In this document: positions 5,786 to 60,790 of the stretch, in pieces
Layout of the letters: every line of letters starts with the position of its first letter
Position numbering within the stretch: position 1 is the first letter of the stretch
Assembly (NCBI RefSeq): GCF_043290135.1
Contig: NC_134705.1
Coordinates: 59,919,771-59,983,770, forward strand
Reading direction: 5' to 3'
Length of the DNA stretch: 64,000 nt
DNA from: Rhipicephalus microplus
Taxonomy: Eukaryota; Arthropoda; Arachnida; Ixodida; Ixodidae
Notes under the pieces: generated by a model
Seen by the model: the letters and a program-made list of their open reading frames with translations, nothing else
The model's database searches: none
What the model was told of the DNA's origin: nothing
Program-made: the position numbers and the translations under genes

Positions 5786-6066
5786 TGTTCCCAACCAGAT
5801 AAAAAAAATCGGCATGGTGATGGAACTGCTTTACGAGGCCTGGGGTGCGGCCTCACCGGTAACCACCGCCGGGAACGCACTCCCTCACCAGAGAAGGATT
5901 GGCCACCCTGGTGCAGTATCTGGCCACCACCTCCCACATGCATACGTCAAAAAACTCATGGCCCTCAGTCCCCAGCAGCTGCGAAGCAACTGACCATGGT
6001 GGTGGTCAGATCTGCAACGCAGCAGAGGGTGCTAAGAATCTCCGGATCCGGACAGGCCGCCATTGG

Positions 6067-21062: not shown

Positions 21063-21817
21063 GGAGCAACCACAGCGTCACCATCTAGAATGTCAAGTGA
21101 CTTGATCGTAAGGACACGTTCTCGTCCGGGAGGCAGGAGGAAATCCGCAGCTGTCACAAGGTTGGGCGACGAAAGGTCGGCAGCAGAAGAAAGCTCAGTG
21201 TCCGTAATACGAATGAGGGGCCGACCACACGAAATTACAGCAGACGCCGCTGACAAGAAGTCCCAGCCTAAGATTATTTGATGAGCGCACGAAGACAGCA
21301 CAGCCAATTGTATGTGATGACGGATTTCATCGATGAGAATACGAGCAGTGCACAACCCGGTCAGTCGAATTGGACTGTCATTAGCACCGCATAACATGGG
21401 ACCGGCATAAGGAGTTTGCACTTTACGCAGGCGAAAACACAATTCACGATCAATTACCGAAATTGCGGCTCCAGTGTCTATAAGGGCGTCAACAAAAACA
21501 CCTTCCACAAAAACAGGCAGTAAATTAGCTGGACGAGACGGAGGAGCTGTAGCGTTCCGACGACAAGCAGTTTCCCCTCCAAAAACTGCACCTTCTAGTT
21601 TTCCGAGTCCCGAGAGATCGGAGCGGGACGCAAGGGTGATGACGCACGCCGAAACGGTGACGGAGAACGGCGGGAGATGAACGAGACGGATGAGGCCCAG
21701 CATGAGACCGTGGAGGGGAGGGCGACTGACGGAAGGGGGATGGATACGGTGCGGGATCGTATTCATCGGGTCTCGGGGAAAAGTCTCTCTCGTAAGCTGA
21801 GTAACCACGTCGTTCAT
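21017..21817 (-). pseudogene. Gypsy B protease region
   Basis: After the gag-pol junction (about 21598) this frame holds GKLEGAVFGGE. The aspartic protease follows with VDALIDTGAAISVID, the catalytic DTGA intact at about 21470-21490. A downstream block HQIILGWDFL matches the conserved flap-to-C-terminal part of gypsy proteases. The part before 21600 (the first 70 residues) overlaps gag in another frame and is probably not translated in this frame. The open frame ends at 21017, overlapping the RT frame. Confidence 0.88.
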
Positions 21818-37192: not shown

Positions 37193-38403
37193 ATGAATGA
37201 AGATCAGCAGGCTGCTGCCTCGGCTCCAACTTATCCAGCTCCCGTCTGTTCCGCCCCAATCAGGCTGCGTGACCCACCTACCTTGAGTGGCACTATTGAC
37301 AAACAAGTGGAAGATTGGCTGGACAAATACGACCGGGCGAGGAAGCACAACAAATTGGATCATATGCACAAGCTTACTGTGGTCCAATTCTATGTAACTG
37401 ACGACGCCGGTTTGTGGTACCGCAACCCCGAGGAGGACCGAATCAGCCTTCAACAGCGCTCGCGGATTTGTTCGGCCATCGAGCGCTTCACGAGCTACGT
37501 GCTGAACAACGCTTGCGCGCTCGGGTCCAGCCAAGCGGCGACAATTACACCAGCTACATTGAAGATGTACTCGATCTTTGCCGGCGTGTGAACCCGGCCA
37601 TGACGGAAGCCGAGACAATCAAGCCCATCATGAAAGGCTTTGCTGGCGACACATTTCAGATGTTCATCGATAAAAACCCGCAAACGTTTGCAGATGTAAT
37701 CCAACTTTGTCAAAGTTATAACGAGCTCTGGAAACAGAATGAATATATTCGTCGCGCCAGTGCGGCATGCGCCACAATTTCCAGTTTAACGTAGGACGAC
37801 CGCAATGCCTCGCTCCTCGTGATCAAGCAGTTTGTACGCAAAGAGGTCGCACGCCAGCTGTCCATTGTGCCGTATACCTTTGATAGTGCACCATCTACCT
37901 TGCCGACTCTGATACAGTGAGTTGTTCGCAAGCAAGTGTCCGAGGTGCTACCCGCAGCCGATATACCAGCCGTGACTGCTCCGCTGTCCTACGCCGAAGC
38001 ACTGACCGCACCAAGACGTTTGCCTGCCGCAAACAACTACGTCTGCGCGCACCCCTATGCCGCACCTTCTGAACCTGTGCAGCCGGCTGCCTGCCCGTTC
38101 GCCCGACCACGCACTCAGAAGCCATGGCGAACTCCAGACAACCGCCCCATATGCGTTGCCTGTGGTTTTGCTGGCCACGCAACATGGTTTTGTCGACGGC
38201 GTGACTTTCTTCTGCGTGACGACGTTCGGTAGAACGCTTACGATTTTCTACCTCGACCTGAGCCTGCTTCATCAGGCCTGCCTGCCGGTATGGATACATT
38301 TCCCCCTCATCGCAGCTTCGATAGAGAACGGTCGCCTTCACCACAGCGCCGTTTCGTTTCCCCTACGATACGTAGTCCTCGCCATGTCCCTGAGGAAAAC
38401 TAG
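37193..38403 (+). pseudogene. Gypsy E gag
   Basis: Start near 37193 ([12 protein letters not shown]; an upstream ATG lies at 37183). Capsid pieces: DPPTLSGTIDKQVEDWLDKY (37268-37330), then after a frameshift near 37440 NYTSYIEDVLDLCRR and MTEAETIKPIMKGFAGDTF (37540-37660). An internal stop at 37791 and another at 37918 follow. The zinc knuckle CVACGFAGHATWFC is near 38150-38195. Past a frameshift near 38230 the tail reads RERSPSPQRRFVSP and ends PEEN-stop at 38403. That ending matches the -N-stop of gypsies C and D. Confidence 0.85.
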
Positions 38404-38431
38404 GAGCCGCAGTTCCGGAGGCAAGAATGGA
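38391..38431 (+). promoter_or_regulatory. Gag-pol frameshift site, gypsy E (eroded hairpin)
   Basis: GAG GAA AAC TAG (38392-38403) in gag; pol continues in -1 as GGA AAA CTA and is open to the protease. After the AAC, 8 nt precede GCAGTTCC and a GGAGGCA loop at the places of the B/C stem and loop. The 3' arm pairs at only 5 of 8 positions. Confidence 0.65.
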
Positions 38432-39290: not shown

Positions 39291-40560
39291 TGAACTTTGG
39301 GCCATGCTTTCAGTATGTCTCATCGAATCGACGCTGCGATTCACGCACCTTTACGTCAGCATCCATATCGTGTGTCAGCTTCTGAGCGGAAAATTATCAC
39401 CGAAGAAATTAACGATATGTTGAAGAACGGCGTTATTGAGCCCTCTAACAGTTTATAAGCATCACCGGTCGTTCTAGTGAAGAAAAAAGATGGCTCACTA
39501 AGATTTTGCGTCGACTACCACCGGGTGAACAAGATCAACCGCAAAGATGTTTACCCGCAACCACGCATTACGACGCCCTCGACTGCTTACTAGGAGCCAT
39601 GTTCTTTTCGTCGCTACACCTTCGCTCCGGTTATTGACAGGTTCCGATGACTGAGGCTGACCGCCCCAAAACAGCTTTCGTCACCCCAGATTGCCGATAT
39701 CAGTTTAACGTTATGCCATTCGGGCTATGCAACGCGACTGCCACTTTCGAGCACATCATCGACAACATCCTCCGTGTACTCAAACGGCAGACATGCCTGT
39801 TCTACTTAGAAGATATTCTCATAATTTCGAGCGAATTTTCACACATCTTCAGCGTCCCGAAACAGGGCTCACTTGCCTCGCCTCGGCCAGTCTATAGCTC
39901 AACTTAAAGAAGTACTGCTTTGACACTGGACAGCTTCTAGTTTTGGGCTATATCGTCGCTAAGGGGGGCGGTCTCCCTGATTCAACGAAATGGGGCGCCG
40001 TTGCCGAGTTCCCTAAGCCGAAGACGTTGAAAGAACTTCGCAGCTTCCGTGGTCTGTGCTCTTATTTTCGTCGCTTTATCCGAAACTTTGCCTCCATCAT
40101 TTTAACCTTGAATTAACGCGTCCGCTGCAACCACAACTTTAGCGGGCGGTCACCGGCATGTGACGATGCCTTTGCCACTCAGCGGCACCTTCTTACGTCA
40201 CCTTCAATACTGCGACCTTTTGATCCGCTTGCTCCAGCGGAGAACCAGGTGCCGTTCTCGGTGCTGTGATTGCCCAGCGTGAACCAGGATTTGATGAGTA
40301 CGTCGTCTCCTACACCAGTCGTGCGTTGACTAAAGTGGAAGTCAACTACTCAATTGCAGAAAAAGAGTGCTTAGCCTTTGTATGGGCCAGCAGTTTGGGT
40401 ACAGTCCACTATGTCTTACGCGGGCTTTCCTCGTCAAAAGATTTCTCCGGCTGACTCGGCCGTTGGGCACTCCAACTCCAGGAGCATGACATTCACGTTA
40501 TCTACAGATCTGCGCGCAGACATTCCGACGCCGACGCTCTGTCTCGATCAGCCGGACCAC
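39290..40560 (+). pseudogene. Gypsy E reverse transcriptase and RNase H
   Basis: [22 protein letters not shown] (39460-39520), after a stop at 39457, then KTAFVTPDCRYQFNVMPFG (39668-39724) and FYLEDILIISS (39800-39832). The YLDD box is YLED, so one catalytic Asp is lost. The thumb is broken at 39905. RNase [15 protein letters not shown] and [13 protein letters not shown] (40266-40390), then [12 protein letters not shown] (40455-40490). A stop, a deletion of the first RNase H motif and frameshifts are visible. The linker after RNase H ends at the palindrome at 40578. Confidence 0.85.
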
Positions 40561-40577
40561 ATAATGACGAGTCGCCG

Positions 40578-40610
40578 TTTTCACCAACCCACAGTGTGGG
40601 TTGGTGAAAA
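40578..40610. repeat. Perfect 16-bp-arm palindrome
   Basis: TTTTCACCAACCCACA (40578-40593), one G, then its exact reverse complement (40595-40610). The left arm is the natural gypsy E coding sequence (FSPTH); the right arm looks newly made. It lies 1 bp from the minisatellite. Confidence 0.97.
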
Positions 40611-40611
40611 T

Positions 40612-40942
40612 AGAAACTCCGCAACTAGAAACTCTGCAACTCGAGACTCCACAACTAGAAACTCCGCAACTAGAAACTCCGCAACTAGAAACTCCGCAAC
40701 TAGAAACACGGAGACAAGAAACTCCACAACTACAGACTCTGCAACTAGAAACTCCACAACTAGAAACTCCGCAACTAGAAACTCTGCAACAAGAAACTCC
40801 ACAACTACAAACTCTGCAACTTGAACCTCCACAACTAGAAACTCCAAATCTAGAAACTGCACAACTAGAGACTCCACAACTAAAAACTCCACAACTAGGG
40901 ACTCCATAACTAGAAATTCCACAACTAGAAACTACGCAACTA
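40612..40942. repeat. 15-bp minisatellite, about 22 copies, inside gypsy E
   Basis: Unit GAAACTCCGCAACTA with point variants. The unit length is a multiple of three and stop-free in more than one frame. This explains the open plus frames (N-S-A-T-R and Q-L-E-T-P repeats) and the open minus frame (E-F-L-V-A repeats) here. These are not real genes. The array sits between RNase H and integrase, a linker in this family. Confidence 0.95.
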
Positions 40943-41545
40943 CTTTGTCTCTACTTTGTGTCTCTACTTTGTGTCAGTGACATGCATTCGGAGCAACAGA
41001 AAGATCCCTGGATCGCATCACTTCTGAACTTGCCGAGTCTTCCTCCTTCGCAAAACATCCCAAGAGGCGTGCGCTATCAAGTCAAGTACAGCAAGTCGGT
41101 GTCCGGGATGGTTTGCTATGCCAAAGAAATTACCTTTATCAGGGTCGCCGATAGCTCCTGGTTATTCCCACACATCTCCGCTCAAACCTGTGCACTTCAT
41201 TTTACGCCGTTCACCTTGCGCGAATGCTGGCATGTAAAAAACTTACACCCGCCTGTCACACCGCTACTACTGACGTGGAATGTATCGCTTTATCCGACAC
41301 TACGTCCAGCCCTGTGTCGCTTGCCAGCGCTGGGACAATGCAACACCGCGTTCTTCAGCTCTACTACATCCCTTACCTTGCCCTGCCAGACTCTTTGACC
41401 ATGATGGTATTGATCTCTATGAAACCCTTCCACTCACCCCTTCTGTCAATCGTTGGATAATTGTCGCCATTTATCATCTTATGCGCTATGCCGAAACTTC
41501 ACCATTACCTTCGCGCATCGGCTAGTGACGTTGGTTCTTTCATAT
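40943..41545 (+). pseudogene. Gypsy E integrase, 5' half
   Basis: Zinc-finger region traces: RYQVKYSKSVSGMV near 41070, then MYRFIRHYVQPCVACQRW (41280-41335) with the CxxC pair. The core begins with HDGIDLYETLPLTPSVNRWI (41400-41460), containing the first catalytic Asp (DLY), and RYAETSPLP. A frameshift lies near 41240. The frame is cut at 41545 by the LTR of gypsy D. Confidence 0.85.
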
Positions 41546-43665: not shown

Positions 43666-43741
43666 CAAGCGACATTCATCCTCTTCGTCGGGCACACACG
43701 CACATATTGACAATATGCATTGCGGCAGCCTACATCTAGCA
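43666..43741 (-). repeat. Gypsy D 3' LTR, inner part
   Basis: Follows the integrase tail and a purine-rich AGGGGG stretch (43746-43751) on the sense strand; starts TGCTAGATG. The remaining part of the LTR is at 41546-41639 across LINE B. The exact start of the LTR is uncertain. Confidence 0.6.
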
Positions 43742-44519
43742 GAACCCCCTAGGCAATGGCGCCGTCTCGGCGCATCTAGACGTCCACTTCATCGGGCGAC
43801 TGTTACTGCTTCAGGCGTGTGACGTGTACGACATCGCTGGCCCGAGGGGTGAGTGAAGACGATGAGGCAGCAGGAGCGATTTCCTAAGTGATGGGAGTCA
43901 CCGCACGAAGCACTTTGTGTGACCCTGTGTACGGAGAAAACAGTTTGACAGACAGGCCAACGTGCCTGGTCGGAGACCAAAGCAAAACCAACCAACCAGG
44001 CGAAAAGTGCTCATCGCGGTGTCGTTGATCATACCGACGCGGTTGGTTTTCTTGGGAGGCCAGAAGGTGAGCACGAGCGACTTCGCGTGCGCGCGCGGCC
44101 CAGCTGATGGCGTCCAGGGCATATTTTGTGGTGGGAGCTGTTGGCAATGAAATGACTGTATCGAGAGCAATGTTGGTTCGTGGCCGAACAACAGCAAAAA
44201 TGGGGAGTAACCAGCTGTGTCATGGCGCGATGAATTGTGCGCAAATGTCACGTATGATAGAGTGAGGTCCCAGTCAGAGTGGTCTGAGGACACGTACTTT
44301 GAAAGCATGTCGGTTAGGGTTCGGTTCAGGCGCTCCGTGAGGCCATTTGTTTGCGGATGGTACGACGTAGTGAGCTTGTGGCGCGTTGCACATAAGCGTA
44401 GGATGTCCGCTATGACTCTCGATAGAAATGTGGAGCCTCGGTCCGTCAGCAGCTGGCATGGAGCATCATATTGCAAGATCGCGTCGTGTAGAAGAAAATT
44501 GGTGACGTCTGTGTGTACC
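43742..44519 (-). pseudogene. Gypsy D integrase, 3' half
   Basis: Sense: TDVTNFLLHDAILQYDAPCQLLTDRGSTF, with the second catalytic Asp in LLTDRG, SYHPQTNGLTERLNRTLTDM with the catalytic Glu, then SPFLLLFGHEPTL. Next come frame changes near 44120 and 44000, and the tail DVVHVTRLKQ with a stop. The first Asp lies at 50340-50420, beyond the CR1-like insertion. Nearly colinear with residues 905-1140 of gypsy C pol. Confidence 0.9.
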
Positions 44520-45034
44520 TTTATTTAATTTTTTTTATTTTAAATACCCTCAAGGCAATTGCATTGAAGAGGGTAGTGGGTGAATACATTACAAGAAGTC
44601 AGGAAACTGCAGTACAAATAGTAGAACAGAAGTAGCTATAATCTCTAAAGAACAAGTTATATGGTTCAGAAAGGTCGCAATATTCCTGTTGCGACGAGAA
44701 AAATGCGGCTGAGGTTAGCATAGGTGACAATTTTGGGCATTCAATAAAAAATATATATACATACATTGGACAAGTGAATTTCACAGATATCAATGCAACG
44801 TTATACAGAATCAAATGGCCTGAAACGTAATATTAGACGCAGCGGTACGAAACATATCTGGGTTGCGAATTATAGCAATGTTAGAAGGAAGGTGGTTCCA
44901 GTCGTTAGCGGTATGGGGAATGAAGGAATGAAAAAAGGCCTTAGTGCTGCAAGAAGGAACGCCAACTTTATGAACATGATCTAAACGCGGGGATATGTAT
45001 GAAGGTGGAGTAAGTAAAGCATGACGATGCATAT

Positions 45035-45176
45035 TGTTACGTGGAAAATAACAGTTGTTGGTCCGCAGCCACAACGCAGCTCACTCACAACGTCCACTTC
45101 TTTACTCTCAGTCCGAGGCACCTCCCTTGGGTATGCCCCACTATGCCCTCTTTCAGTCAGACGAAATCACGTAACA
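45035..45176 (-). repeat. 3' LTR of gypsy C
   Basis: 142 bp, identical to 49980-50121 except for T/C at two positions. Confidence 0.97.
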
Positions 45177-45211
45177 CGACCCCCGGCGGCAAAAGCGCCG
45201 ACCCGGCGAGT

Positions 45212-48200
45212 TTACGGGGCCACAGCAGGAGCAGTGTGGTAACGCTTGAGCCTTGATACGTGGACGATGTCCCTTGACAGCAGAGCGGAAGAGGTTGATG
45301 GACTATCAGGGACAATTTCATATGTAGTGTCGGTCACTCGTCTAAGCACGCGGTATGGGCCCGTGAAACGAGAGAGAAGTTTTTCTGACAGGCCTGTATG
45401 TCGCGTAGGGGACGAAAGAAGAACGAGGGAGCCTGTTGGAAAGTGTTCGTCGCGATGCCGCTTGTCGTAACGATGCTTCTGCGAGTCTTGGGACGCCATT
45501 AATCTGCTGCGGGCAAGCTGACGAGCATGGTCAGCTCGGGTAATAGCGTCGCGTGCATATTCAGAAGTATACTGCGCAGCGGCTGGCAGGAAGGTATCCA
45601 ACGGCAATGTTGGTTCGCGTCCAAACAGAAGGTAAAATGGCGAGTACCCGGCAGTGTCATGCCGGGAGGAATTGTATGCGAACGTCACGTAGGGTAGTGC
45701 AAGGTCCCAATCACGATGGTCGGCCGAGACGTATTTCGATAGCATGTCTGTCAAGGTGTGGTTTAAACGTTCTGTAAGCCCGTTTGTCTGGGGGTGGTAC
45801 GATGTCGTGAGCTTATGTTGGGTAGAGCAGGAACGCAGGATATCGTCAACCACTTTCGAAAGGAACGTACGGCCTCGGTCTGTCAGCAGTTGACGAGGGG
45901 CTCCATACACTAAAATGAGATCGCGTAGTAGAAAATCAGCGACGTCTGTAGCGCAGCTTGTTGGCATGGCTCGCGTAACTGCATAACGGGTCGCGTAGTC
46001 CGTAGCCACCGCGACCCACTTGTTTCCGGAGGCGGATGTTGGGAAGGGACCGAGAAGGTCCAAACCAACACGGAAGAATGGCTCCGATGGGATGTCGATG
46101 GGCTGAAGATATCCGGAAGGTAGTCTCGACGGCTTTTTGCGACGCTGGCAAATTTCACAAGCGTTGACATAGCGACGTACAGAACGTGAAAGGCCAGGCC
46201 AGTAGAAGCGGCGGCGTACACGGTCATATGTGCGAGAGACACGAAGGTGACCCGCGGTTGGCGCGTCATGGAGCTCGCGTAGGACTGTAGAACGCAGGTG
46301 CTTTGGTATGACCAAAAGTAGGTCGTGACCATGGGGCGATAAATTACGCCGATATAAGGTGTCGTCCTTTAAGGTAAACATGCGAACGGAAGCGTCTTGC
46401 GGTGAAGATTCGAGCTGTTGTATTAGGCGGCTGATATCCGGATCGCGACGCTGCTCGTCCCCGAGATGAAGCAGTTGGGAGGTGGAAAGGACGCAGCCCA
46501 CAGAATGAGTGCTCGTAGGATCGCAGTCGGCCACAGGGTAGCGTGACAGACAATCCACATCTTTGTGCAGTTTTCCTGATTTGTACACTACGGTGTAAGA
46601 ATACTCCTGGAGGCGGAGTGCCCAGCGGGCGAGACGACCTGTGGGATCTTTGAGGGAGGCGAGCCAGCAGAGAGCGTGGTGGTCGGTAAGAACTATAAAT
46701 GGTCGACCGTATAAGTAAGGGCGAAATTTCGCGACTGCCCACACCAGCGCTAGGCATTCGCGCTCTGTGATGGAATAATTACGCTCCGAGGTGGACAGCA
46801 GCCTGCTGGCATAAGCTATCACGCGATGCTGCCCACGTTGTCGCTGAGCCAACACAGCGCCTATTCCGTAGCCGCTGGCATCGGTGCGCACTTCCGTCGG
46901 TGCCGTAGGGTCGAAGTGAGCCAGCACAGGAGAAGAAGTGAGCCAAGTGGTCAGGTCGGAAAATGCTGCTGCTTGCGAGGGACCCCAGGTAAACGTCTCA
47001 TCCGGTTTGAGTAAATCTGTTAGGGGCCGAGCGATTTCCGCGAAGTTCTTGATGAACCGCCGAAAATAGGAGCAGAGCCCCACAAAGCTGAGGACATCTT
47101 TGGCGGTTTTCGGCACAGGAAAGTCCTTCACTGCTCGAACTTTTTCTGGGTCAGGCTGTACACCGTAAGCGTCAACAATATGTCCAAGTATTGTAATGCG
47201 ACGGCGACCAAACCGGCACTTAGATGAATTCAGCTGAAGGCCGGCGAGACGGAATACATCAAGAATTTTTGACAGTCTTTCAAGGTGCGCTTCAAAAGTG
47301 GGAGCAAACACAATCACGTCATCCAGATAACAAAGACACGTAGACCACTTGAATCCATGGAGCAGGGAGTCCATCATTCGTTCAAAGGTGGCGGGGGCAT
47401 TACATAAGCCGAAAGGCATGACTTTGAATTGATAGAGGCCATCGGGTGTTACAAAAGCCGTCTTCTCTCGGTCCATGGGGTCCACGGCAATCTGCCAATA
47501 ACCAGAACGAAGATCGATGGAAGAAAAGTAGGCGGCACCATGGAGGCAATCAAGGGCGTCATCAATGCGGGGCAGAGGGTATGCGTCTTTCTTGGTGATG
47601 TTGTTAAGGTGGCGATAGTCCACACAAAATCGCCACGATCCGTCCTTCTTTTTAACTAATACCACCGGGGATGCCCAGGGACTGGAGGATGGTTCAATAA
47701 TGTCCTTCGCTAGCATCTTGTTCACCTCCTTCTGAATTATGCTCCGCTCAAAAGCAGACACTCTGTAGGGACGGCGGTGAACAGGGTTGGCATCACCTGT
47801 GTGTATGCGATGCTGGACAAAGGACGTCTGCCCAAGAGGTCGGTCACCAAAATCGAAAATATCCTGGTAGGCCTCGAGAAGATGTTGTAGGGCTTCAACT
47901 TGCGGAGGCGGAAGATCTGTGGCGATCATGTCTACAATTTGACGGCTGCCCGAATGTGTTGCGAGTAATGTGCGCTGCGGTGAAGCAAGTGTGTCTAAGG
48001 CAAGCACTTCAATTTGTGAATCGAGCAACGGACACAGGTGGGCCACAGAAATGCCTTGTGGAAGCACATGATTCATGTAGCCGAAATCGACAAGAGGTAG
48101 ACAAGTTTTGTTATCTGTGATGCTGAGCACCGTATAGGGCACTGCAACATTGTGCGCAAGGAGTACGTCGGTGAGAGGCGTAGCGTAATAGTCACCGTCG

Positions 48201-48719
48201 GGCACAGCTGGTGAGCACAGAAAATCGACGTACGTCACAGTTTTCGAGGGCAGGCGAACAAAATCGCTGCATTGTAATCGGCATGTAGGTTGGTACGGGG
48301 CGGCACTGATTTGTGGCAGTTCAAGGCGGAGCACACCAGCGGAGCAATCAATCAGAGCAGAATTGGCGGCAAGAAAATCGAGGCCTAGTATGAGGTCGTG
48401 GGGACATGTTTCAAGCACGGTAAAAAGGACGACCACTTGATGACCGGCTACGGTAAGTTGAGCTGTGCACATACCGACGACAGGGACTTTTGCACCATCT
48501 GCAACTTGGACGACACTGGTCAAGGGGGGCGTGAGGACCTTCTTCATGCGACGACGAAAACGCGAACTCATAATACAGACGTGAGCGCCCGTATCTATCA
48601 AAGCTTCAACAGGTGTACCATCAACATATACTTCTAGGGTGTTCCGGTTCAAACGTAAGGGCAACAGAGGATTTTTGGGTAAGGTCGACAGGGCAGCTTC
48701 ACCTCCAGAAGCTGCGCAG
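45212..48719 (-). CDS. pol: Gypsy C Pol polyprotein (protease, RT, RNase H, integrase)
   Basis: 1150 codons from the Met at 48664; the true protein probably enters by -1 frameshift from gag at 48724-48729, because the frame is open upstream to the junction (GKLGCAASGGEAALS). Protease: ALIDTGAHVCI, DTG at 24-26. [22 protein letters not shown] near 336-355, MPFGLCNAPATF, YLDD at 446-449. RNase H: RTDASGYGIGAV, catalytic D595, E636, D661, and DCLSR at 704. Integrase: finger H799, H806, C836, C839; core D869, D929, E965 (35 residues between the last two, DD35E); GPY module at 1102-1104. All catalytic residues are present. It copies element RNA to DNA and inserts it. The protein ends RRYHTAP-like, 36 bp before the LTR. 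Confidence 0.95.
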
Positions 48720-48732
48720 CCTAGTTTTCCGG
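48693..48732 (-). promoter_or_regulatory. Gag-pol frameshift site and hairpin, gypsy C
   Basis: Sense: CCG GAA AAC TAG (48732-48721); pol reads GGA AAA CTA. Counting the TAG, 8 nt lie between the AAC and a perfect 8-bp stem: GCAGCTTC (48715-48708) and GAAGCTGC (48700-48693), loop TGGAGGT. Same geometry as gypsy B, with the fifth pair C-G here and T-A there. Confidence 0.85.
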
Positions 48733-49908
48733 GGACGCGCGGCGGTTGAACGATGGCGAGGGAGAGCGGCGACGCGTGTTTGAACGAGAAGGGCGGCTTT
48801 GAGGCGGTGGCGACGACGGGGCACGGTGGCCGTAGTCCTCAGGGGCAGTAAATGCTGTAGACTCGGTGCAGGTCGGATAACGGTGGTTTGGTGGACGGAA
48901 TGAGTTACTGTAAGCGGAGTACGAGCCAGAAGACATAGATGGCCATTGGCTGCGGCAGTAACGAGCGATGTGTCCTGCGCGACCACAGCGGAAGCAAATT
49001 GGCTTATCATCAGCTGTTCGCCATTCAGACGGGTTCCTGGTTCGGATAGAGTACGGACGGCGACGTCTCATGTCCACAGAAGCTATCGAGGGGCCAGTAT
49101 TATCCAGTGTGGATGCAGTGGACAGGATGTCAAGGTTAGCAAATTCCTGGCGGACAACAGCCTGGATCAAGGCGACAGCTGGCGTTGAGGCGTCGGGCAA
49201 CGTCGGTTTGTTGGCAGCCGGGTAAGCGGCCTCGAGTTCACGTCGGACGATGCGCGTCACGTCGTCGGTTGTAGACGGATGACAAGGAGTGGCTTCGCAA
49301 GACGACGTTGCCGCGGTGTTGGGTAGGCGCTGAAACTGCTGCAAAATGCGTCGACTCTTCGCCTGCTCGAGACGGCGGCACTCTTTGATCACGGCGTCCA
49401 TGGTCGTTACGTTGGTGAATACAAGTAGACTGAACGCATCGTCGGCGATTCCTTTTAACACGTGCGAAATCTTGTCGGCCTCAGTCATGTTGGGATCGGC
49501 CCTTTGACACAACGCTAAGACGTCTTGAATATAAGTCAAGTAGGGCTCAGTGGACGTCTGTGTACGGACAGCCAATTGCTTTCGGGGATCAAGTTGTTGA
49601 CCAAACGGGTTGCCAAAAAGGTCGCGGAGCTGTTGTTTAAACATTTCCCAGCTTGTGATTTCGTGCTCGTGGGTCTCAAACCAGGTGCGAGGGGTCTTGT
49701 CAAGATAGAAAATGACATTCGCAAGAATAACGGTTGGGTCCCAGCCATATTGCTTGCTGATGCGCTCGTACATGCTAAGCCACTTGTCCACATTCACGTT
49801 GTCCTCTCCAGTAAAGGTACCGGGATCACGGGGTTGCGTTAGGGCGACGTACCGGGTTGCTGTCGTTGCTGAGGTAGGTGGCGAAGCCGTATCCTCACCC
49901 GGAGCCAT
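48721..49908 (-). CDS. gag: Gypsy C Gag
   Basis: Open from 50019, but the first 37 codons read through LTR and leader; the Met at 49908 (MAPGEDTASPP) is the likely start, giving 395 residues. Numbers here count from 50019: capsid-like QPRDPGTFTGEDNVNVDKWL (62-81), WFETHEHEITSWEMF (113-127), YLTYIQDVLALCQRA (160-174), MTEADKISHVLKGIADDAF (178-196). The zinc knuckle CFRCGRAGHIARYC has C342, C345, H350 and C355 (CX2CX4HX4C), followed by an S/P/R-rich tail ending SPEN-stop. It packs element RNA in virus-like particles, by family role. Stop codon TAG is at the frameshift site. Confidence 0.94.
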   Translation of the reverse strand: MAPGEDTASPPTSATTATRYVALTQPRDPGTFTGEDNVNVDKWLSMYERISKQYGWDPTVILANVIFYLDKTPRTWFETHEHEITSWEMFKQQLRDLFGNPFGQQLDPRKQLAVRTQTSTEPYLTYIQDVLALCQRADPNMTEADKISHVLKGIADDAFSLLVFTNVTTMDAVIKECRRLEQAKSRRILQQFQRLPNTAATSSCEATPCHPSTTDDVTRIVRRELEAAYPAANKPTLPDASTPAVALIQAVVRQEFANLDILSTASTLDNTGPSIASVDMRRRRPYSIRTRNPSEWRTADDKPICFRCGRAGHIARYCRSQWPSMSSGSYSAYSNSFRPPNHRYPTCTESTAFTAPEDYGHRAPSSPPPQSRPSRSNTRRRSPSPSFNRRASPEN

Positions 49909-49979
49909 GGTAGCAGGCTTAAGGAGGCGTCCACTGCGTAGCTCCGTTGTCAGAAGAGCACCCAGCACTTCCACCAAAA

Positions 49980-50121
49980 TGTTACGTGGAAAATAACAGT
50001 TGTCGGTCCGCAGCCACAACGCAGCTCACTCACAACGTCCACTTCTTTACTCTCAGTCCGAGGCACCTTCCTTGGGTATGCCCCACTATGCCCTCTTTCA
50101 GTCAGACGAAATCACGTAACA
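49980..50121 (-). repeat. 5' LTR of gypsy C
   Basis: 142 bp, TGTTACGTG...CACGTAACA. No TATA box that I would trust. Confidence 0.97.
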
Positions 50122-50302: not shown

Positions 50303-53300
50303 CGAAGGGCGCATGTGATGGCGTAGCGTGTGGCGTAGTCAGTGGCCATAGCTATCCACCTGTTGCCAGCAGAAGACTGGTGAAAAGGCCAAGTAAGTCC
50401 AAGCCGACGCGAAAGAAAGGGTCAGAAGGAATGTCGAATGACTGAAGGTGCCCAGCCGGAAGCGTTGACGGTGTTTTGCGGCGATGACATTCCTCACACG
50501 GCGCGACATAACTTCTGAGAGAGCGTGCGAGACCTCGCGAATAGAAATGATGGTGGGTGAATCCGGTCGTATGTGCAAGACGCGCCGAGGTGACCGGCAG
50601 TAGGGACGTCATGAAGTTCGTGGAGTACAGCCAAGCGGAGGTGTTTGGGTATAGCAAGCAGCAGAGATGAGCCGTCTGGATGGAAGTTATGCCGTTATAA
50701 TGTACCATTCCGAAGTACGAACGCACGATGGGATCAGTTCGATGGAAAAGAGTCGAGGCACTCCATCATAGCTCGTAAGGCTGCATCACGGGGTTGCTCG
50801 TCAGCTGTGTGGGTCAGTTGGGAAATGGAGCACACGCAGGCGTCATTGTCAGGTGCGCCAGCTCGTTTGCCAACTGGGTAGCGGGAAAGGCAATCAGCGG
50901 GCTGATGCAGGCGTCCAGACTTGTACGTCACAGCAAAAGTATAGTATTGCAGTCGCAGAGCCCAGCGGCCAAGTTGACGTGTGGGATCGCTCAAGGCTGG
51001 CAGCAAGCAGAACGCGTGGTGGTCCGTGACGGCGGATAAGTGTGTGCTATATAAAAATGGACGGAACTTCGAGACCGCCCAGACAAGAGCAAGGCACTCT
51101 CGCTCCGTGATCAAATAGTTGCGCTCTGCAGGTGTAAAGAGGCGGCTAGCGTAGACGATAACGCTGCCGTGTCCTTGGTGCGTTGGGTGAGAGCGGCTCC
51201 GATACCGTAACCACGGGCATTCGTTCGGACCTCAGTTTGGGTGGATGGGTCAAAGTGGGCCAGGATAGGGGGCGTGATCATAAGTGTGATGAAGCGAGAG
51301 AATGCTACTGCTTGAGTGGACGCCCACGAAAATGGGACGCCTTCCTTCAGAAGATCGGTGTGTGGTTGGGCGATTACTGCAAATTCTTTCACGAACCGCT
51401 TATAGTAGGAACAGAGTCCCACAAAGCTCCAGACATCTTTGGCGGATCGAGGTACTGAAAAACTCGTGACGGCACGAATTTCTTCAGGGTTCGGACGCAC
51501 ACCAGACACATTGTAAAGGTGGCCCAACACTGTAGTATGTCGGTGGCCGAAATGACAGTTCAAGGAGTTCAACTAGAGGCCAACATTGCGGAAGACCTTG
51601 AGAATGGCTGAGAGACAATCAAGGTGGGTCTCAAATGTAAGTGAACATACTAGGGCGTCGTATAGTGTATACAGGCATGTTGACCATTTGAACCAGTGTA
51701 GCAGAGTCCATCATATGTTCGAACGCGGCTGGCGTGTGGCATAGACCGAAGGGGATAACCATGAATTCGTACAGGCCATCGGGAGTGACGAACATGGTCT
51801 TTTCTTGGTCCTTCTGGTCCATGGCAATCTCTCATCAACCAGAGCTAAAACGATGGGTGAAAAATTGCGTGCGCCAAGGAGACAATCGAGAGCGTCATCA
51901 ATACTGGGCAAAGAATACACGTCCTTTTTCGAAATTCGATTTAGATGCCGGTAATCGATGCAGGAACGCCATGTGGTGTCCTTCTTTTGAACCAGGACAA
52001 CGGGTGACGCCCATGGGCTTGATGAGGGCTCAATAATGCCTTTAGTTAACATTTTTGTTGACTTTGGCTTGAATAATCTGGCACTCCAAAGTGGACCCGC
52101 GATACGGTCGACAGTAATTGGGAGCAGCATCACCTGTGTAGATGCGGTGCTAGACAAGAGAAGTTTGGCCGCGTGGTCGAGCGTCAAGGTCGACGATGTC
52201 GCGGTAGGAAGCGAAAATGCGGATGAGGGTAGCTTATTGTGCTGGGGGGAGTTCAAGAGCGATCATGGCACATATTGACATATAGAGACGTGTGTAATCG
52301 GGTGGGCGACAAGAAAGATTAGTGCATCCGTCAGCTGCGAAAGTAGTGACGTGGTCATCGGTTAATGACCGCAACGTGGCAATTAAGATGTTTTTGGGTA
52401 GGACTTCCTTCGCGAGTCTGAAATTTATGACGAGTACATATATCAGGTTGGCGGCAATAGTTACGACAAAGTGAGGGACGGTGACATCACGGGCCAGTAG
52501 GACATCAGAAATCGGCGTGACGATGTAATCCCCTTCCAATACGGGTGAGGTCGTGGTGAACTCGGCAAATGTGAGGGCTTTAGGCGGTAAGCGGAGAAAA
52601 TCTGTGGCACAGAGACCACGTTAATGTTCAGGTTGAATATCCAGCTGAAGAGGAAGGTCTAAGCAAAGAGTACCAGCGGAACAGAGCAGGATGGGTCGAC
52701 AGCAAGTCCATTCCCAAGATGAGGTCATGAGGAAAGTTATCGAGCATCGTGAATAGGACATGAACGTAGCGTTCGGCCATGCTTATGCGAGCCATACACA
52801 TTCCGAGGGCAGGAACAGTTCCGCCATCGGCGACACGTACAGCTTCTATAGCAGGAGGCGTCAGTACTTTTCTTAAGCGGCGACAAAGATGAAGACTGAG
52901 TATGGACACGTGAGCGCTATTATCTACTAGTGCCGTGAGAGAAATACCGTCATCGTGCACATCGATAAGGTTTTTGTTCGTAGGAAGCGTCAACGGAGGG
53001 TTTGGTTCCGACGGAGATGATGCGGCCCTCCCTGCAGGAGCTGCACGGTCTAGTTTTTCGTCGGGCATGATGGAAAGTTGGGCGGCGAGGGATGGTGGCG
53101 TGGTTGGGGTGACGGGGAATGACGGTGTTGAGGGCACGGAGAACGAGCAGGAAGTCGGCTATTAGGTGGGTCGAAAAAAGGATCCATACGGCTGGGCGAA
53201 TACTGGCGAGGATCTTCGTAAGGGCTATAAGGTGCGAAAGACAGGTTCCTATGTGGCGGCGCCCAGGAGGCACGGTACACGGTAGTAGTTTAGTTCGGAC

Positions 53301-54440: not shown

Positions 54441-54639
54441 TGCAGTAGTTTTTTTTTTTTTTGGGGGGGGGGGGGGGGGGCTCGCGGGCCCTTTGGGGTG
54501 CACGATAGCTAGTAACGAAAAAACCAACCAGAGGGTCTCTTTGACAGGTGGTATAGACAGATACGATTCCAAAGTGGCACCACTATCTAAGACAGGTAGA
54601 GTCCGGGGCAGAAATCGACGTAGCCACGAGGGCCGAGCC

Positions 54640-54808
54640 AATTCAGACGTAGGGTATATTAACATGCAGTGTGGCAGGAATAGGCTGAAGGGGGAAGAGA
54701 TAGAAAAGCAAGTAAGGGAGGAGAGGCTGATGGCATATGGTTTTGTAGAAACCCACCTTAGGGACATGACACAACCTCCTAACAATCCGGACTACGCGAG
54801 GGAATATT
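54640..54808 (+). pseudogene. LINE A endonuclease, first part
   Basis: INMQCGRNRLKGEEIEKQ then LMAYGFVETHLRDMTQPP; catalytic Glu block YGFVETHLRD as in copy 1 (16740 region). Cut at 54808 after PDYARE by the CR1-like LINE; it resumes at 58902 with CNRIEGSRKG in another frame. Confidence 0.9.
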
Positions 54809-55119
54809 TTATTTATTTATTTTTATATTCTAAGGACCCGGGAGGGCATTACATAGGGGGTGGGGGATTAGGAAGATTTTCAACATGTGTACAATACATT
54901 AAATGTTCAGAGGCATCATTACAAAAAGCCTAAATGAAAAAAATAGACACAACAGCAGTGATAAAGAGAAAAAGCATATATATAAACTCTGCAGAAGAAA
55001 AGGTTAGTTAATAAAAATACAGTGGGCTCCAGGTAACTAAGTGTAGGCGCAAATGACACACTCAAAAATATCCAAGTAATTCACACGAGCAACACCACCG
55101 TATAACTATATTAATCGAT

Positions 55120-56900
55120 TGGAAGTTCTAAGAACACCTTTAACGCTTTCAGAAATGATGGAGATTCTGTTAGAGTGGCTATATCAGCTGCCAAGGAATT
55201 CCAGTTAGTTATCGACAAGGCTAAGACCGAGTTTTGGTATTTTTTGTTCTCGGGAAGATGGGATTAATTTGTTAGGGTGATCAAGATGGGCTGAAGTGTG
55301 TGATGGCGAGAGGATATGCCTGCGCTCAAACAGGGAGTTGCTTTGGAAGAGTGAGTGGAAATTAGATAGCCTTGCAAGTTTACGGCGCGTGGCAAGGGAG
55401 GGCAGAATAAGCGATTTCAGTAAGGAACTTACGCTTTCATACCGTGAGTATGATGACGTTAGCAAGCGCGCAGCTTTGTTTGGAATTGATTCAACCAGGT
55501 GAGTTAAATTTTCAGTGTGAAGATGTCATATGATTGAAGCATACTCCAGCGATGCTCTTAACAGGGAAATGATTGAATTGAGTCTGGCTTTTTTGTTGGC
55601 AAGGTATATTCGCCTTTTAAGGATGCCAAGTTTTGTTGTTGCTATAGTAGTGATATGTTCAGTGTGAGTGGTGCAGTTTTGATTGGCTGTGAAAAATACC
55701 CCAGATATTTAAAGGATTGTACTGATTTAATGCGAATGTCATTTATGGTGTATGTGTTATGCAAAGAGATTAGAGCAGAACTAAATTCCAAGTGCTTAGT
55801 TTTCCGTACAATATTTTCCATCTGCCTTGTGTCGCACCACTGAGCCAGCCTATCTAGTTCAGATGTAGAATGGTATTATCGGCAGGGCAAGTTATTTCTT
55901 TGTAGATTACGCCGTCGTCTGCAAATAGCCGAATTAGCAAACTTATGTTACATGCTATGTCATTATTGTATAATGAAACAAAAGAGAACCTAGAACAGAG
56001 CCTTGTGGGACACCGGATAAAACGCTAGTAGGGTTAGAGATGTAGCTCTTTAGTTTTACAGATTGGAAGCGATTAGTAAGAAATTTCAGAATCCATTGTG
56101 CTGTATTGTTTTCAAGCTTCAGATTGCGAATGTTAAGTTCAAACGTTTGTAGCGGACCCTATCAAATGCCATTGATAAATCAATAAAGATGGCATCGCCA
56201 CGACGGGAAGAGTTAAGCGCAGAATGGTCAGTAATAAGTTAGAAGCTCAGTAGAATTAGAAGGTCAGTAATTAGTTCGAAAAGTTGTGATTGGCATGAGA
56301 AGTTTTGAAGAAAACCATGTTGGTTGTTTAGGAGCAAGTTATTTAAATGAAGATAAGCCATTATATTTGTGAGTAGGATATGTTCGAGAAGTTTGCAGCA
56401 TATGGACGTCAAAGAGATCGGTCTGTAGTTATTGGGATGAGTATTATCACCAGATTTGAATATTGGGATTATGTAAGCAGATTTCGAGTCCTCTGGCAGA
56501 TAACCTGTATCTAAAGATTGATGAAAAATTAACGCCAGCAAAGAGGCTGAGAAGTGGCTGGTTAGTTTTAAAAGCTTATCGCTAATACCATCAGGGCCGG
56601 GGCTGGTTTTAAAAGCTAACCAATATATCGCACAAGCTACAGCGTGTGCAGTTGTTGTGATAGGATAAAATTGATTAGAAATAGCTGTGGCAAATTAAGG
56701 TTGCTATCGAGCAATCTCTCGAATGTGTGAACTTCGGAAAAAAATGGTTAAGTTTTTCAGCGCAGCCGCCTAAGCTCAGGGTGTTGCCATCCTCTCTACA
56801 GAGTGCTGGCACTGACTCTCTTTTCTTGGGATTTACAGCGCTCCAGAACTTCTTAGGGTCAGTTTTGAACATGGTAGGTAGTGTGTCATTGAAGTACTTA
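55120..56900 (-). pseudogene. CR1-like reverse transcriptase, broken
   Basis: Sense order: DPKKFWSAVNPKKRESVP and REDGNTLSLGGCAEKLNHFF (56760-56870), AYIIPIFKSGDNTHPNNYRPISL and LTSICCKLLEHI (56390-56500), LNNQHGF (56310), AIFIDLSMAFDRVRYKR (56150-56200), GVPQGSVLG (56000-56025), and LFADDGVIYKE with the catalytic FADD at 55914-55925. Then a thumb region and the C-terminus WNSLAADIATLTESPSFLKA (55140-55200). The order and wording match CR1/L2-group RTs. FADD is intact, but frames change at least five times. Confidence 0.85.
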
Positions 56901-57199
56901 CTTTTCGCTTTATAAATTGCAGCTTCTGTTTGTTTGGAAATGTTTTTAAAGTTCTGCCAGTCCTCCGACGCGTTCGTACTCGACGCTTCAGTGTACGACC
57001 TCTTCTTTATATTAAGCTAACTTTTAATGTCACAGGTGAACCATGCATCGTCCGCTCTTTCGGTTATTGTAATCACCGGCACACAAACACGTTCTATTTC
57101 TTTTAATTTGTCACGAAATAAGCACCAATTTTGTTCAGTAAAGTGATTAGGAAAGTTAGATATAAATTCATCCGAAAAAGATTCTAGGAATCTGTTAAG

Positions 57200-58068
57200 C
57201 TTATCTGTGTCTGCGCGTGCTTAGTTAAATATATTCTTTCGGACGTTTATTTTCTTGGCATGCGGAAGAGGCGAAAAGTGGTGAACTGCCCTATGATCAC
57301 TTATTTCTTCCAAGAACTCAACTTTAGTGCTGTCGGAATGATTAGGTATTATAAGGTCTAAAATATTGCTGTCACGTGTTGGTTCCTGCACGATCTCTTG
57401 TAGATTGTGATAATGGAGAAGGCGCAGAAAGCTAAGCTGTCAATGGCAATTAGAATGAGTAGGGACAGATGAAGTGGACCAGTTGATTGAAGGATAGTTG
57501 AAGTCGCCACCAAGTATTAGAAAACAATTAGAAAACTCGAAAAGAATGGAATCAATAACTCCCCGAAGAAGCTCAACGAAATCATGCCGGCAATCAGGGG
57601 GTCAGTAACAGGCACCAATATGCAATGAATCCGTTAAAAACATGATGAAACCGAGACAATTTCAAGGGGGGAATCTGAAGGAAGAAGTTATGGCTGATAG
57701 ATTTCTTTTATGGCAATAATAACGCCACCACCTTGACAACCCATTCTATCTATACGAAACAGATTAAACGATGATGAAAACGAAAGTTCGCTGTTCGTTA
57801 CGTTCTCGGTAAACCATGATTTCGTACCTACGACTATATCAGCTGAGCACGTGTACACAAGGGTGTTTATTGCATCAAGCTTTTTATAAACTCTGTAAAA
57901 ATTAAATAAAAATAGTGAGACCGATTTTGACAAGTTTGGCGTGCGGCAACGTGATTTACAGGGTGATTCAGGAGGGTTTTGTATATTTGTTGACACCGTG
58001 ACTAGGCAATTATTTATCGAGTCGTAACAGAATGTAGAACCATGCATCTGAAGCTTGTTAAAACGCAC
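57200..58068 (-). pseudogene. CR1-like endonuclease, broken
   Basis: The N-terminal half is clear in one frame (57688-57920): FNFYRVYKKLDAINTLVY, SADIVVGTKSWFTENVT, then FRIDRMGCQGGGVIIAI, matching the N..K..E/T and GGG block of CR1 AP endonucleases. The usual ETW is KSW here, so the catalytic Glu is changed. The C-terminal half (57240-57660) is readable only in pieces. Not functional. Confidence 0.8.
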
Positions 58069-58289
58069 CGTATATTTTTCATCGCCTTTGCATTGAGCCT
58101 TAGCGTAGTCGCGTAACTTCTTTCTGGCAAGCTGTGCTTTTGGTGAGAAATCTTCCTCAAGCCAGACCTTAGTCCTTTAGAGATCTTTCAACTTTGGGGC
58201 GCTAGACAGAGCTTTTATTTGGTTTTGAAGTTCAAAAACTTCACTATGATAGGGCAATCAAAGTCGGGCCAGGGTTTTCATAATCTATG

Positions 58290-58790: not shown

Positions 58791-58901
58791 CTGCCGAAGA
58801 AACATTTAGGCATTCGGCTAGCAAAGAACGAACCAATACAAGCACGATAACTACACACATCAATACCCATGTTCAAAAAGAGAGATTTGCATTGTAGTAT
58901 T

Positions 58902-60002
58902 GTAATAGAATAGAAGGCAGCAGAAAGGGAGGTAGTATTGGGGCATTCATTCATAAAAGTACAGAGTGGCAAAGGGTCAAGCAGGAGTGCAACGAGCATT
59001 TATGGCTAAAAGGGAAGATGGCAGGGCAGAGGACACTCCTGGGATTTGTATACTTGTGGACAGGGGCAAAAGCCAGAGAGGAAAATCAACAAATGGTGCA
59101 CTGCATAGGAAATGAAATAAACGAACTAGGAGAAGAGTGCGAAGTAATCGTATTAGGAGATATGAACGCGCACATAGAAGGTATGGGTAGATATACTGAC
59201 CCAACAAAAAAATGATAATTAAAATGTGTGAAATACATGATTTAATCATTTGCAACAGCACCAAGAAATGCGAAGGGCAGATAACATGGGAAGTGGGAAG
59301 GCTGCAGTCGACGACAGATTATGCAATAAAGTCACATGGGAGCTATGCTCAGCTAAGGGCGGTGAACATAGATGAATATGGGTCAAAAAGCTTAGGTAGT
59401 GATTACAAACGTACCAAGCTGCGTTTTCGAAAAGAAATGAAATTGGAAAGGCGGAATTACGAACAACTACGAGGTAATATTTATTCAGAAAGGCAAAGAG
59501 AAATGGTAGCTAGAGAGATTGAGAAAATAATGACCGAGGATACTCGAACAGAGTGGACGTACACAAATCTAACTCGACTGTTTGAGTTAGAGCTTGCTAA
59601 GGTACGAGTCAAATCAACCAGGAAAAGCAGACACAAACCCAAGAGCTGGTGGGATGAGGAAGGTAAGGGAGTCATAATAAGACGTCAGGAAGTCTCCAGG
59701 GAACAGAGGTATGCTAAACAGAGGGGTGAACCTGAAGATGATGTCAAAAGTAAATGGAATAACTTTTTGAGCTACAGAAGGGAAGCGTTTGATTTGATCA
59801 GTGGGAAGATTAGAAGAAAAGGACCCAGTGGATAGCGGAAGTAAACAAAAAGGATAGAAAGGCAGCTGGAAAGTTTAGAAACCATCTCAATTTTCTGAAT
59901 AATAACACAAGCATCAAAGAGAGGTTTATAACTACAGTTCAAGGGGTCAAACTGAAAGGGGATGAGGCAATAGAATATATAAAACCAATGATGACAGGAA
60001 AA
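58902..60002 (+). pseudogene. LINE A endonuclease, second part, and connector
   Basis: Resumes with CNRIEGSRKG and GAFIHKSTEWQRVKQECNEH in shifted frames, then EVIVLGDMNAHIEGMG (59140-59180; GDxN block), KKCEGQITWEVGRLQSTTDY (59255-59320), GSDYKRTKLRF (59395-59430), where the SDH His is Tyr. A charged connector YTNLTRLFELELAKV follows (59560-59605). A stop at 59212 and a frameshift before 59835 are present. The endonuclease of this copy has lost its catalytic His. Cut at 60002. Confidence 0.87.
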
Positions 60003-60790
60003 AATGGCAGCATATCCACGGAGTGAAAGATGGAGAGTGGGCCGAAGCATGCGTCCGTTCATTCGTTCTTAATTCCGTCCGTCCATGCGTCCGTCTGTGT
60101 GACCGTTCGTGCGTACGTCTGTTCGTGCGTCGGCACGTCCATCTGTGCGCCCATCCCTGCGTTCGTCCATGCATCCGCCCCTGCGTCCGTCAATGGGTCC
60201 ATCCGTCGGTGTAGCCATCCGTGAGTCGGTCATGCATCTGTCTTTGTGTCCGTTCGTCCATCTATTCAACACTCCAAGTACCACGATCTCGCATCTTTTC
60301 ATCATATATTCCGCACATGAACCGGCATTTAGCGGATTTTTCAAGGACCAAACGAGAGGTGGCACATGCACACTTTCTTACGGCTTGCGCTTCGTGTCTA
60401 CTTCCCACCTTTAACCACCTCGAGTTCATGGTATATACTAGTTCACGGTTTTCAAGGCACTGCAACCCAACACTCGCTAAGCCTTTCTAAAACCAAGGAG
60501 GTTACGGCCAGCATATATAACGCAGCAACCCTTTCTTGTCAGATAGTGCTCAATGTACATGCCAATTGCTGCTAAGGGGCAAAGAGAGACAGGAGAATTC
60601 GGCTTTTAGTTTCCGCGCACGCTGCGAATTTTTTTATTCTTCAACAACTCACAGAAGAAATCTCTCACCGGCACCACCTTGGAGGTCAAAACGTAAGACT
60701 GGTTACACACCACGACTACTACTACGACTACGAAGGACGAACGGGTGCCGCTATAAGGAGCTTCGCCCCTAAAATTTAACACCAGGAAAA
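60003..60790. mobile_element. Non-autonomous DNA-transposon-like insert
   Basis: About 780 bp foreign to LINE A: copy 1 runs from one side to the other with only about 30 bp between. Two boundary models fit. (a) An 8-bp duplication CAGGAAAA at 59995-60002 and 60783-60790. (b) A weak terminal inverted repeat ATGGCAGC...GCTGCAT (60003-60012 and 60792-60799) with a 3-bp repeat ATG. The core is rich in CGTCCGTC/CGTTCGT-type repeats (60050-60250). No transposase. An end phrase with GAGCTTCGCCCCT (60757-60769) is one I recall from tick repeats. It was not identified with a named family. Confidence 0.6.
60050..60260. repeat. Imperfect CGTCCGTC-type repeats
   Basis: Many degenerate CGTCCGT, CGTTCGT and CCATCCGT units. 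Open frames on both strands here (R-A-S-V-R-P and R-T-D-G-R-T type repeats) are artefacts of the repeat. Confidence 0.85.

Follow-up and report, generated by a model that had tools for sequence, protein, structure and literature searches.

The window, a stretch of 64,000 nucleotides (G000:C6:59919771-59983770) from the 3.26-Gb Rhipicephalus microplus assembly, contains four gypsy junctions, in elements here called B, C, D, and E, and at each of them a heptamer ending in AAAC directly adjoins a TAG. Heptamer and stop together occupy 21604-21595 in B, 48730-48721 in C, and 53059-53050 in D, all on the minus strand, and 38394-38403 on the plus strand in E. Elements C and B carry Ty3/gypsy marks, namely the domain order protease-reverse transcriptase (RT)-RNase H-integrase in C and long terminal repeats (LTRs) in both; the LTRs of C (45030..45176 and 49975..50121, minus strand) are 97% identical over 147 nt, and those of B are 98% identical. 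Only C combines a long open pol with an open gag. Its gag open reading frame (ORF) extends from the first ATG to the end ...SPEN* (48721..49908, minus strand), and its pol, with protease, RT, RNase H, and integrase, lies in the -1 frame (45212..48730, minus strand). Among the 120 matches listed of 7,776, the best-scoring Pol relative is an R. pulchellus record that is 93% identical. Element C (45030-50121) appears to be nested inside the pol of D, whose Pol pieces are found at 50305-53044 and 43740-44512. The gag of D is in two pieces, a tail at 53053-53274 and the remainder at 63050-64000 (both minus strand), and since these are 9.8 kb apart, later insertions probably lie between them. Other features of the window are a 15-nt tandem repeat at 40548-40997, within the E region; an ORF at 5863-6519 (plus strand) with an endonuclease/exonuclease/phosphatase domain (PF03372), which suggests a non-LTR retroelement; and another repeat family with two inverted copies, 75 to 81% alike (15105-16701 and 58900-61266), two ORFs of which gave no Pfam match.

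In C (all positions on the minus strand), the slippery heptamer G_GAA_AAC at 48724..48730 reads GAA AAC in gag and GGA AAA in pol, and the gag stop codon TAG follows at 48721..48723. Downstream lie the 5' arm (48709..48715) and 3' arm (48693..48699) of a putative stem, S1, whose core has 7 bp; among the window elements, B and C alone add an eighth pair (48708 with 48700 in C). The S1 loop holds TGGAGG (48702..48707), the 5' strand of a second putative stem, S2, whose 3' strand CCTCTG lies 22 nt past S1 (48665..48670) and pairs with it through two G-U pairs out of six. B has the same heptamer at 21598..21604, S1 arms at 21583..21589 and 21567..21573, and S2 strands TGGAGG at 21576..21581 and CCTCCG at 21539..21544, all on the minus strand. 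D, on the same strand, has the heptamer G_AAA_AAC (53053..53059), S1 arms at 53038..53044 and 53022..53028 with six of seven pairs, and S2 strands at 53031..53036 and 52994..52999 with five of six. The decayed copy E retains G_GAA_AAC (38394..38400, plus strand) and remnants of S1 and loop (38409..38431, plus strand), with five of seven S1 pairs and, in a five-base register, four of five S2 pairs, one of them G-U.

The first-pass annotation had proposed a programmed -1 frameshift module with a hairpin at these junctions. The spacer it gave, with exactly 8 nt separating AAC and GCAG, is present in 4/4 window junctions, and the -1 frame is open from heptamer to protease in B, C, D, and E. Its statement that gag ends at AAC-TAG in all four holds for C, the only one with an open gag ending at the junction, but not for B, where the ORF with the zinc knuckle (22931-21525) passes the junction in a different frame, as sequenced; the SP-rich tail ...DSEN* of B sits in the AAC-TAG frame. 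The gag of D is split, as described above, and the gag frame of E has an internal stop. The word AAAACTAG occurs six times in the window, compared with 2.13 expected, and at least six times in 4 of 100 shuffles, so that the word by itself is not striking; its position and frame are.

Read from the heptamer, the pol of C begins with Gly-Lys-Leu and continues into protease, RT, RNase H, and integrase, with the protease DTG at codon 46. In the pol frame, the first ATG is codon 70 in B, 54 in C, and 87 in D, and the protease active site is at codon 43, 46, and 46, respectively. Because the first ATG lies past the active site in all three elements, a separate AUG start would lose it. This bears on whether Pol could arise through splicing or downstream re-initiation instead of frameshifting, as database gene models of Cordylochernes that join gag and pol over the junction might suggest. 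Since B, C, and D lack an AUG ahead of the active site, the slippery box is retained in 17 sequence clusters (see below), and E has a pol-frame stop immediately 5' of the box, we consider such a route extremely unlikely.

Searching the window plus a 200-kb flank with a protease profile gave 26 matches. Fourteen of them begin at profile position 25 or earlier and so reach the beginning of pol. At 13 of the 14 sites, four in the window and nine new ones, the box is in frame and accompanied by a stop; the exception, at window +33811, is a weak match of another lineage, without a box in frame. Genome searches with protein pieces returned 58,263, 55,209, and 54,572 first-look candidates, of which 150 per search were scored and listed, and 40 stretches were fetched for spread (20 from the first list, 20 from the second, and none from the third). 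NNNAAAC plus a stop was found near the expected place in 37 of the 40. The three exceptions (L060, GGGAAAT-TAA; L063, GGAAAAA-TAA; L067, GGATAAC-TAA) were left out of later counts; L060, a tick copy, has a strict X_XXY_YYZ heptamer that differs in the last base. The resulting 50 junctions (13 + 37) carry GGAAAAC (46), GAAAAAC (2), GAGAAAC (1), or GGGAAAC (1), the last, in L023, being the only strict X_XXY_YYZ heptamer among them. All three stop codons are used (33 TAA, 10 TAG, and 7 TGA). Single-linkage clustering at 80% identity gave 17 clusters. Five 10-kb stretches taken elsewhere in the genome had no protease match.

The Gag proteins point in the same direction. In a protein search with the gag of C, 170 relatives passed and 120 were listed, of which 89 end in EN (71), GN (17), or QN (1); the remaining 31 listed relatives end differently, many of them being short or annotated gene models. 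Selecting instead by the SP-rich tail yielded 87 Gags, with 68 EN, 16 GN, 1 QN, and 2 other ends. While we infer the codons behind the EN and GN ends, the residue at position -3 provides a further view of the box, as the third base of its codon is the first base of the heptamer: among these 89 listed relatives, none has a residue there whose codons cannot end in a purine. The same count at positions -4 to -10 is 13, 20, 12, 14, 35, 38, and 9, but it is 0 at -11 and 1 at -12. The gag tails of the tick lineage (window 48721-48900, minus strand, and P0123-P0242) contain an RS/SP-rich, RSPSPQRRQSRSPQPRR-like repeat ahead of the terminal EN.

The pairing originally described for S1 was recovered, with 8/8 pairs in C and B (one of them G-U in B), 6/8 in D, and 5/8 in E, as was the change of the fifth pair from C-G to T-A. 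A stem of 8 bp is, however, a property of B and C and not of the family: 11 of the 13 junctions from the window and its flank lack the eighth pair, which leaves a core of 7 bp. The earlier explanation of the mismatches in D and E, that these are dead copies, is for the same reason only partly sufficient. Across the 13 junctions, 81.7% of the S1 cells are paired, compared with 74.7 ± 2.1% in shuffles (reached by 0/500), and covariation is 0.492 versus 0.313 (0/500); controls slid out of register are 31 to 49% paired. Five pairs are changed on both sides, a number reached by 141/500 shuffles, and permuting whole 3' arms among the 13 reached the observed 8-bp count in 57/20,000 cases. A permutation test for covariation, run on the 17 clusters of this one genome with the spacer fixed at 8 nt, came out clearly in favor of S1, with 107/119 cells paired against a permutation mean of 94.9 and 0/20,000 permutations reaching this value; these permutation counts are not probabilities, and the shuffles do not remove relatedness. 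Frames, spacing, and base-pair covariation are what the sequences show directly. If the fold served packaging, dimerization, or some other step and lay at the box by coincidence, there would be little reason for S1 to pair in 107/119 cells over the 17 clusters at one fixed distance of 8 nt from the heptamer, and we attach almost no likelihood to this explanation.

Since the paired region also encodes the N terminus of Pol, the complementarity could simply reflect the conservation of a protein motif such as a protease cleavage site. Much of the pairing does survive synonymous shuffles that keep the Pol peptide, which pair equally well in 115/1,000 cases for C and 87/1,000 for B (mononucleotide shuffles gave a knot as good in 0/500 cases for each of the two), and pseudoscorpion gene models whose S1 is imperfect also contain the motif GKL..A...GG.xA...PP. 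Yet the two arms vary jointly (GCAGCTT/AAGCTGC, GCAGTTT/AAACTGC, and GCGACCT/AGGTCGC) while third positions are otherwise saturated between families, with an identity of 0.28 to 0.32, which makes an origin in the peptide very unlikely. Three Pol N termini that span the stem (P0014, P0058, and P0089) had 2 fully complementary two-codon blocks out of 171, and these are S1 and S2. Combined with B, C, and D, they gave 24/24 for S1 and 23/24 for S2, values reached by 120/720 and 96/720 row permutations; the top pair of S1 in this six-sequence set is paired in 7/12 (360/720 permutations). P0096 was excluded from this block test, as it was read as crossing the box in another frame. The queries from P0014 and P0058 start in the stem codons, which biases toward kept peptides, a bias that affects the flank sites and matches starting further on (e.g., L061) less; a protein search with residues 1 to 60 of P0014 matched itself alone. 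Single-sequence folding was uninformative by comparison: the fold energy of 48-nt pieces is ordinary (z scores of -1.21 for C, -0.22 for B, +0.34 for D, and -0.23 for E), 32, 74, 124, and 67 of 200 shuffles of C, B, D, and E, respectively, fold as well, and the shuffle scan found no uninterrupted stem of at least 5 pairs in D and E.

As to the kind of stimulator, the downstream structure of the first-pass annotation stands, but its hairpin is better described, judging from the alignments, as an H-type pseudoknot in which the S1 loop pairs with CCTC-type bases about 22 nt past S1. A plain 8-bp hairpin as the entire stimulator was set aside, given the failure of the eighth pair and the better fit obtained with S2. 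Of 552 downstream positions in the alignment of B, C, and D, the one most complementary to the loop is at +22 (17/18; the next best has 15), and S1 and S2 together have 39/42 cells paired. For these three elements, the observed S1 was reached by 1/3,000 column and 2/3,000 codon permutations, and the sum of S1 and S2 by none; shuffling of pair partners (124/500) says little with three sequences. Over the 17 clusters, S2 has 13 mismatches, compared with an average of 16.9 in permutations (532/20,000 have as few), and is perfect in nine, while slid versions have 20 to 65 mismatches; permuting partners among the 13 junctions reached the observed S2 in 3,356/20,000. Its strands change in step (TGGAGG/CCTCCA, TGAGG/CCTCA, CGAGG/CCTCG, AGAGG/CCTCT, and CGGAGG/CCTCTG), and the difference between TGGAGG/CCTCCA and TGAGG/CCTCA or CGAGG/CCTCG would correspond to the loss or gain of a whole base pair. 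In ten elements with a six-base loop strand, S1 and S2 are 92.3% paired (0/500 shuffles on both pairing and covariation; slid controls, 46 to 53%), and six pairs, including two in S2, have changed at both bases (35/500). In seven elements with a five-base strand, pairing is 89.3% (146/500), covariation was reached by 16/500 shuffles, and three pairs are changed on both sides (5/500).

The covariation of S2 is weaker than that of S1, and S2 is poor in L023 and L029a, 4 bp long in E, L029b, L068, and L073, and uncertain in L013. One could therefore argue that the same -1 frameshift is stimulated by S1 as a plain hairpin, with the CCTC run kept only for the NPP/NPL of the Pol peptide. The matched S2 changes in several clusters, the position of the best loop complement at exactly +22, with a spacing that is constant in most, and the pseudoknot that is also offered by a moth-type element (described below) speak against it, and we regard the hairpin alone as unlikely, though less so than the other alternatives.

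Taken together, these comparisons make it very probable that the gag-pol junction of a large R. microplus Ty3/gypsy lineage carries a programmed -1 frameshift signal with a pseudoknot, and the original inference of such a signal is strongly supported by the covariation of S1 in 17 clusters and by the in-frame boxes. Pol lies in the -1 frame and overlaps gag at the heptamer, the heptamer is a conserved, accepted variant, and a covariation-supported structure follows at 8 nt, within the 5-to-9-nt range of known signals. In the model we propose, ribosomes reading gag would arrive at G_GAA_AAC with the stop codon next, and the P-site tRNA-Glu and A-site tRNA-Asn would slip one base back onto GGA AAA, so that translation would proceed through Gly-Lys-Leu into protease, RT, and integrase. 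Re-pairing of tRNA-Glu(UUC) on GGA requires no more than a mid-codon G-U pair. Slippage would be promoted by the H-type pseudoknot 8 nt downstream, with an S1 of about 7 bp and an S2 of 4 to 7 bp joining the purine loop (GGAGG/GAGG) to pyrimidines (CCTC...) that lie in a run 21 to 22 nt past S1, and the N-terminal Pol peptide GKL..A...GG(E/K).A...NPP/NPL would be largely the protein image of this knot. That ribosomes slip, in which direction on the tRNAs and how efficiently, and that the knot forms in vivo, is what we infer from these sequences.

The box itself is not new, and the view that its P-site half is unusual did not hold up. According to the portions of these publications that we consulted, GGAAAAC directly ahead of the ORF1 stop is a putative -1 site in fusagraviruses and papaya meleira virus (PMC4881467, PMC4863961), and GGAAAAC is likewise a putative -1 site in dipteran viruses (PMC3832450) and a mosquito totivirus (PMC10460169); among these viruses, BcRV1, whose heptamer begins with GAA like that of tick element D, is the only one for which a test is mentioned there, in E. 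coli, while GGAAAAC is given as predicted. Fusagraviruses, papaya meleira virus, the dipteran viruses, and AejapTV1 resemble the tick elements in having the same heptamer before the ORF1 stop and the polymerase in the -1 frame, and in the same portions a downstream structure is predicted for several of them. They differ in being RNA viruses with a capsid-polymerase or ORF1-ORF2 junction, and the likeness rests on descriptions of the junctions. PEG10, as described in excerpts of two papers (PMC2800197, PMC10570562), has GGGAAAC just ahead of the ORF1 stop and reads GNGKL. Like the tick elements, PEG10 and sushi-ichi are described there with a -1 shift before the ORF1 stop, Gly-Lys-Leu after the shift, and a pseudoknot as stimulator. 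The PEG10 heptamer is that of L023 and would also be that of the 17 GN-ending Gags if their codons are GGA AAC; its spacer is reported there as 5 nt, compared with 8 nt in the tick, where the usual box is GGAAAAC, and the knots are likened by description. A 2003 survey, as told in part of a review (PMC5009743), placed pol in the -1 frame in 28 of 51 animal LTR elements, which share the gag-pol arrangement and the tandem heptamers with the tick elements; in contrast to what we find here, that part of the review gives no covariation-supported pseudoknot for an arachnid lineage. This tick gypsy signal is not named in the titles and abstract beginnings of the open-licence papers listed by literature searches on the subject, which is weak evidence of novelty.

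Outside the tick, a 5.3-kb "Wolbachia plasmid" (NZ_CP087956.1; L002) is a Ty3/gypsy-like element with its own -1 box, probably from the moth host Corcyra cephalonica. It shares with the tick elements a pol in the -1 frame, a spacer of 8 nt, S1, and a loop complementary to bases downstream (here GGGGC and GCCCC), and it differs in that gag ends in G_TTA_AAC-TAA, S1 is 9 nt with one mismatch, and loop 3 is 12 nt. With one mismatch allowed, 0/300 mononucleotide shuffles gave a knot as good, and 10 of 200 shuffles folded as well as the element; an earlier version without mismatch, matched by 174/1,000 synonymous and 3/500 mononucleotide shuffles, was replaced by this one. The plasmid search returned 11 records, namely the Corcyra element, two "Bacillus licheniformis plasmids" that match gypsy pol (NZ_CP065945.1, L003, and NZ_CP065944.1, L004), and eight short matches, several of them annotated as IS481 transposases; a plasmid search with the Corcyra protease matched itself alone. 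L003 has a G_TTA_AAC-TAG junction and a strong hairpin, and gypsy sequence in the two Bacillus records is possibly contamination. Scans of viral contigs and of phages for relatives found none. In genome contigs, 48 pattern matches included one distant element (L001, PIVK01000084.1), with a gypsy-like pol of 1670 aa on a contig assigned to a Rhodospirillales metagenome-assembled genome and probably a eukaryotic contaminant. Eleven motif strings, ten from pseudoscorpion gene models and one from another protein, keep GG...PP with 4/4 cells each, and the tick S1 register is broken in them (21, 14, and 15 of 22 cells), so that S1 may be missing from them or sit elsewhere. In Cordylochernes models (e.g., P0029, P0049, and P0068), gag-like and pol parts are joined in one protein across the junction, perhaps through modelled introns.

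It is tempting to speculate that the slippery box and pseudoknot are old and were inherited as a unit among animal Ty3/gypsy elements, so that those of tick, pseudoscorpion, and moth, and perhaps the sushi line behind PEG10, would have them in common, although we consider this doubtful at present. If it were so, the Pol peptide GKL...GG...PP would be mostly the imprint of an RNA knot, and gain and loss of base pairs, as from TGGAGG/CCTCCA to TGAGG/CCTCA, would be a mode of its evolution. The case also cautions that conservation of an N-terminal peptide can originate in an RNA fold formed by the same bases. While the frameshift mechanism is known from retroviruses, the putative knot is here kept by matched base changes across many families within one genome, and an animal LTR-retrotransposon lineage thereby gains a probable frameshift stimulator with base-pair covariation from a single genome. 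The 54,572 to 58,263 first-look candidates per query, mostly unscored, suggest that R. microplus may hold a very large natural set of related signals in which to study the trade-offs between pseudoknot and heptamer.
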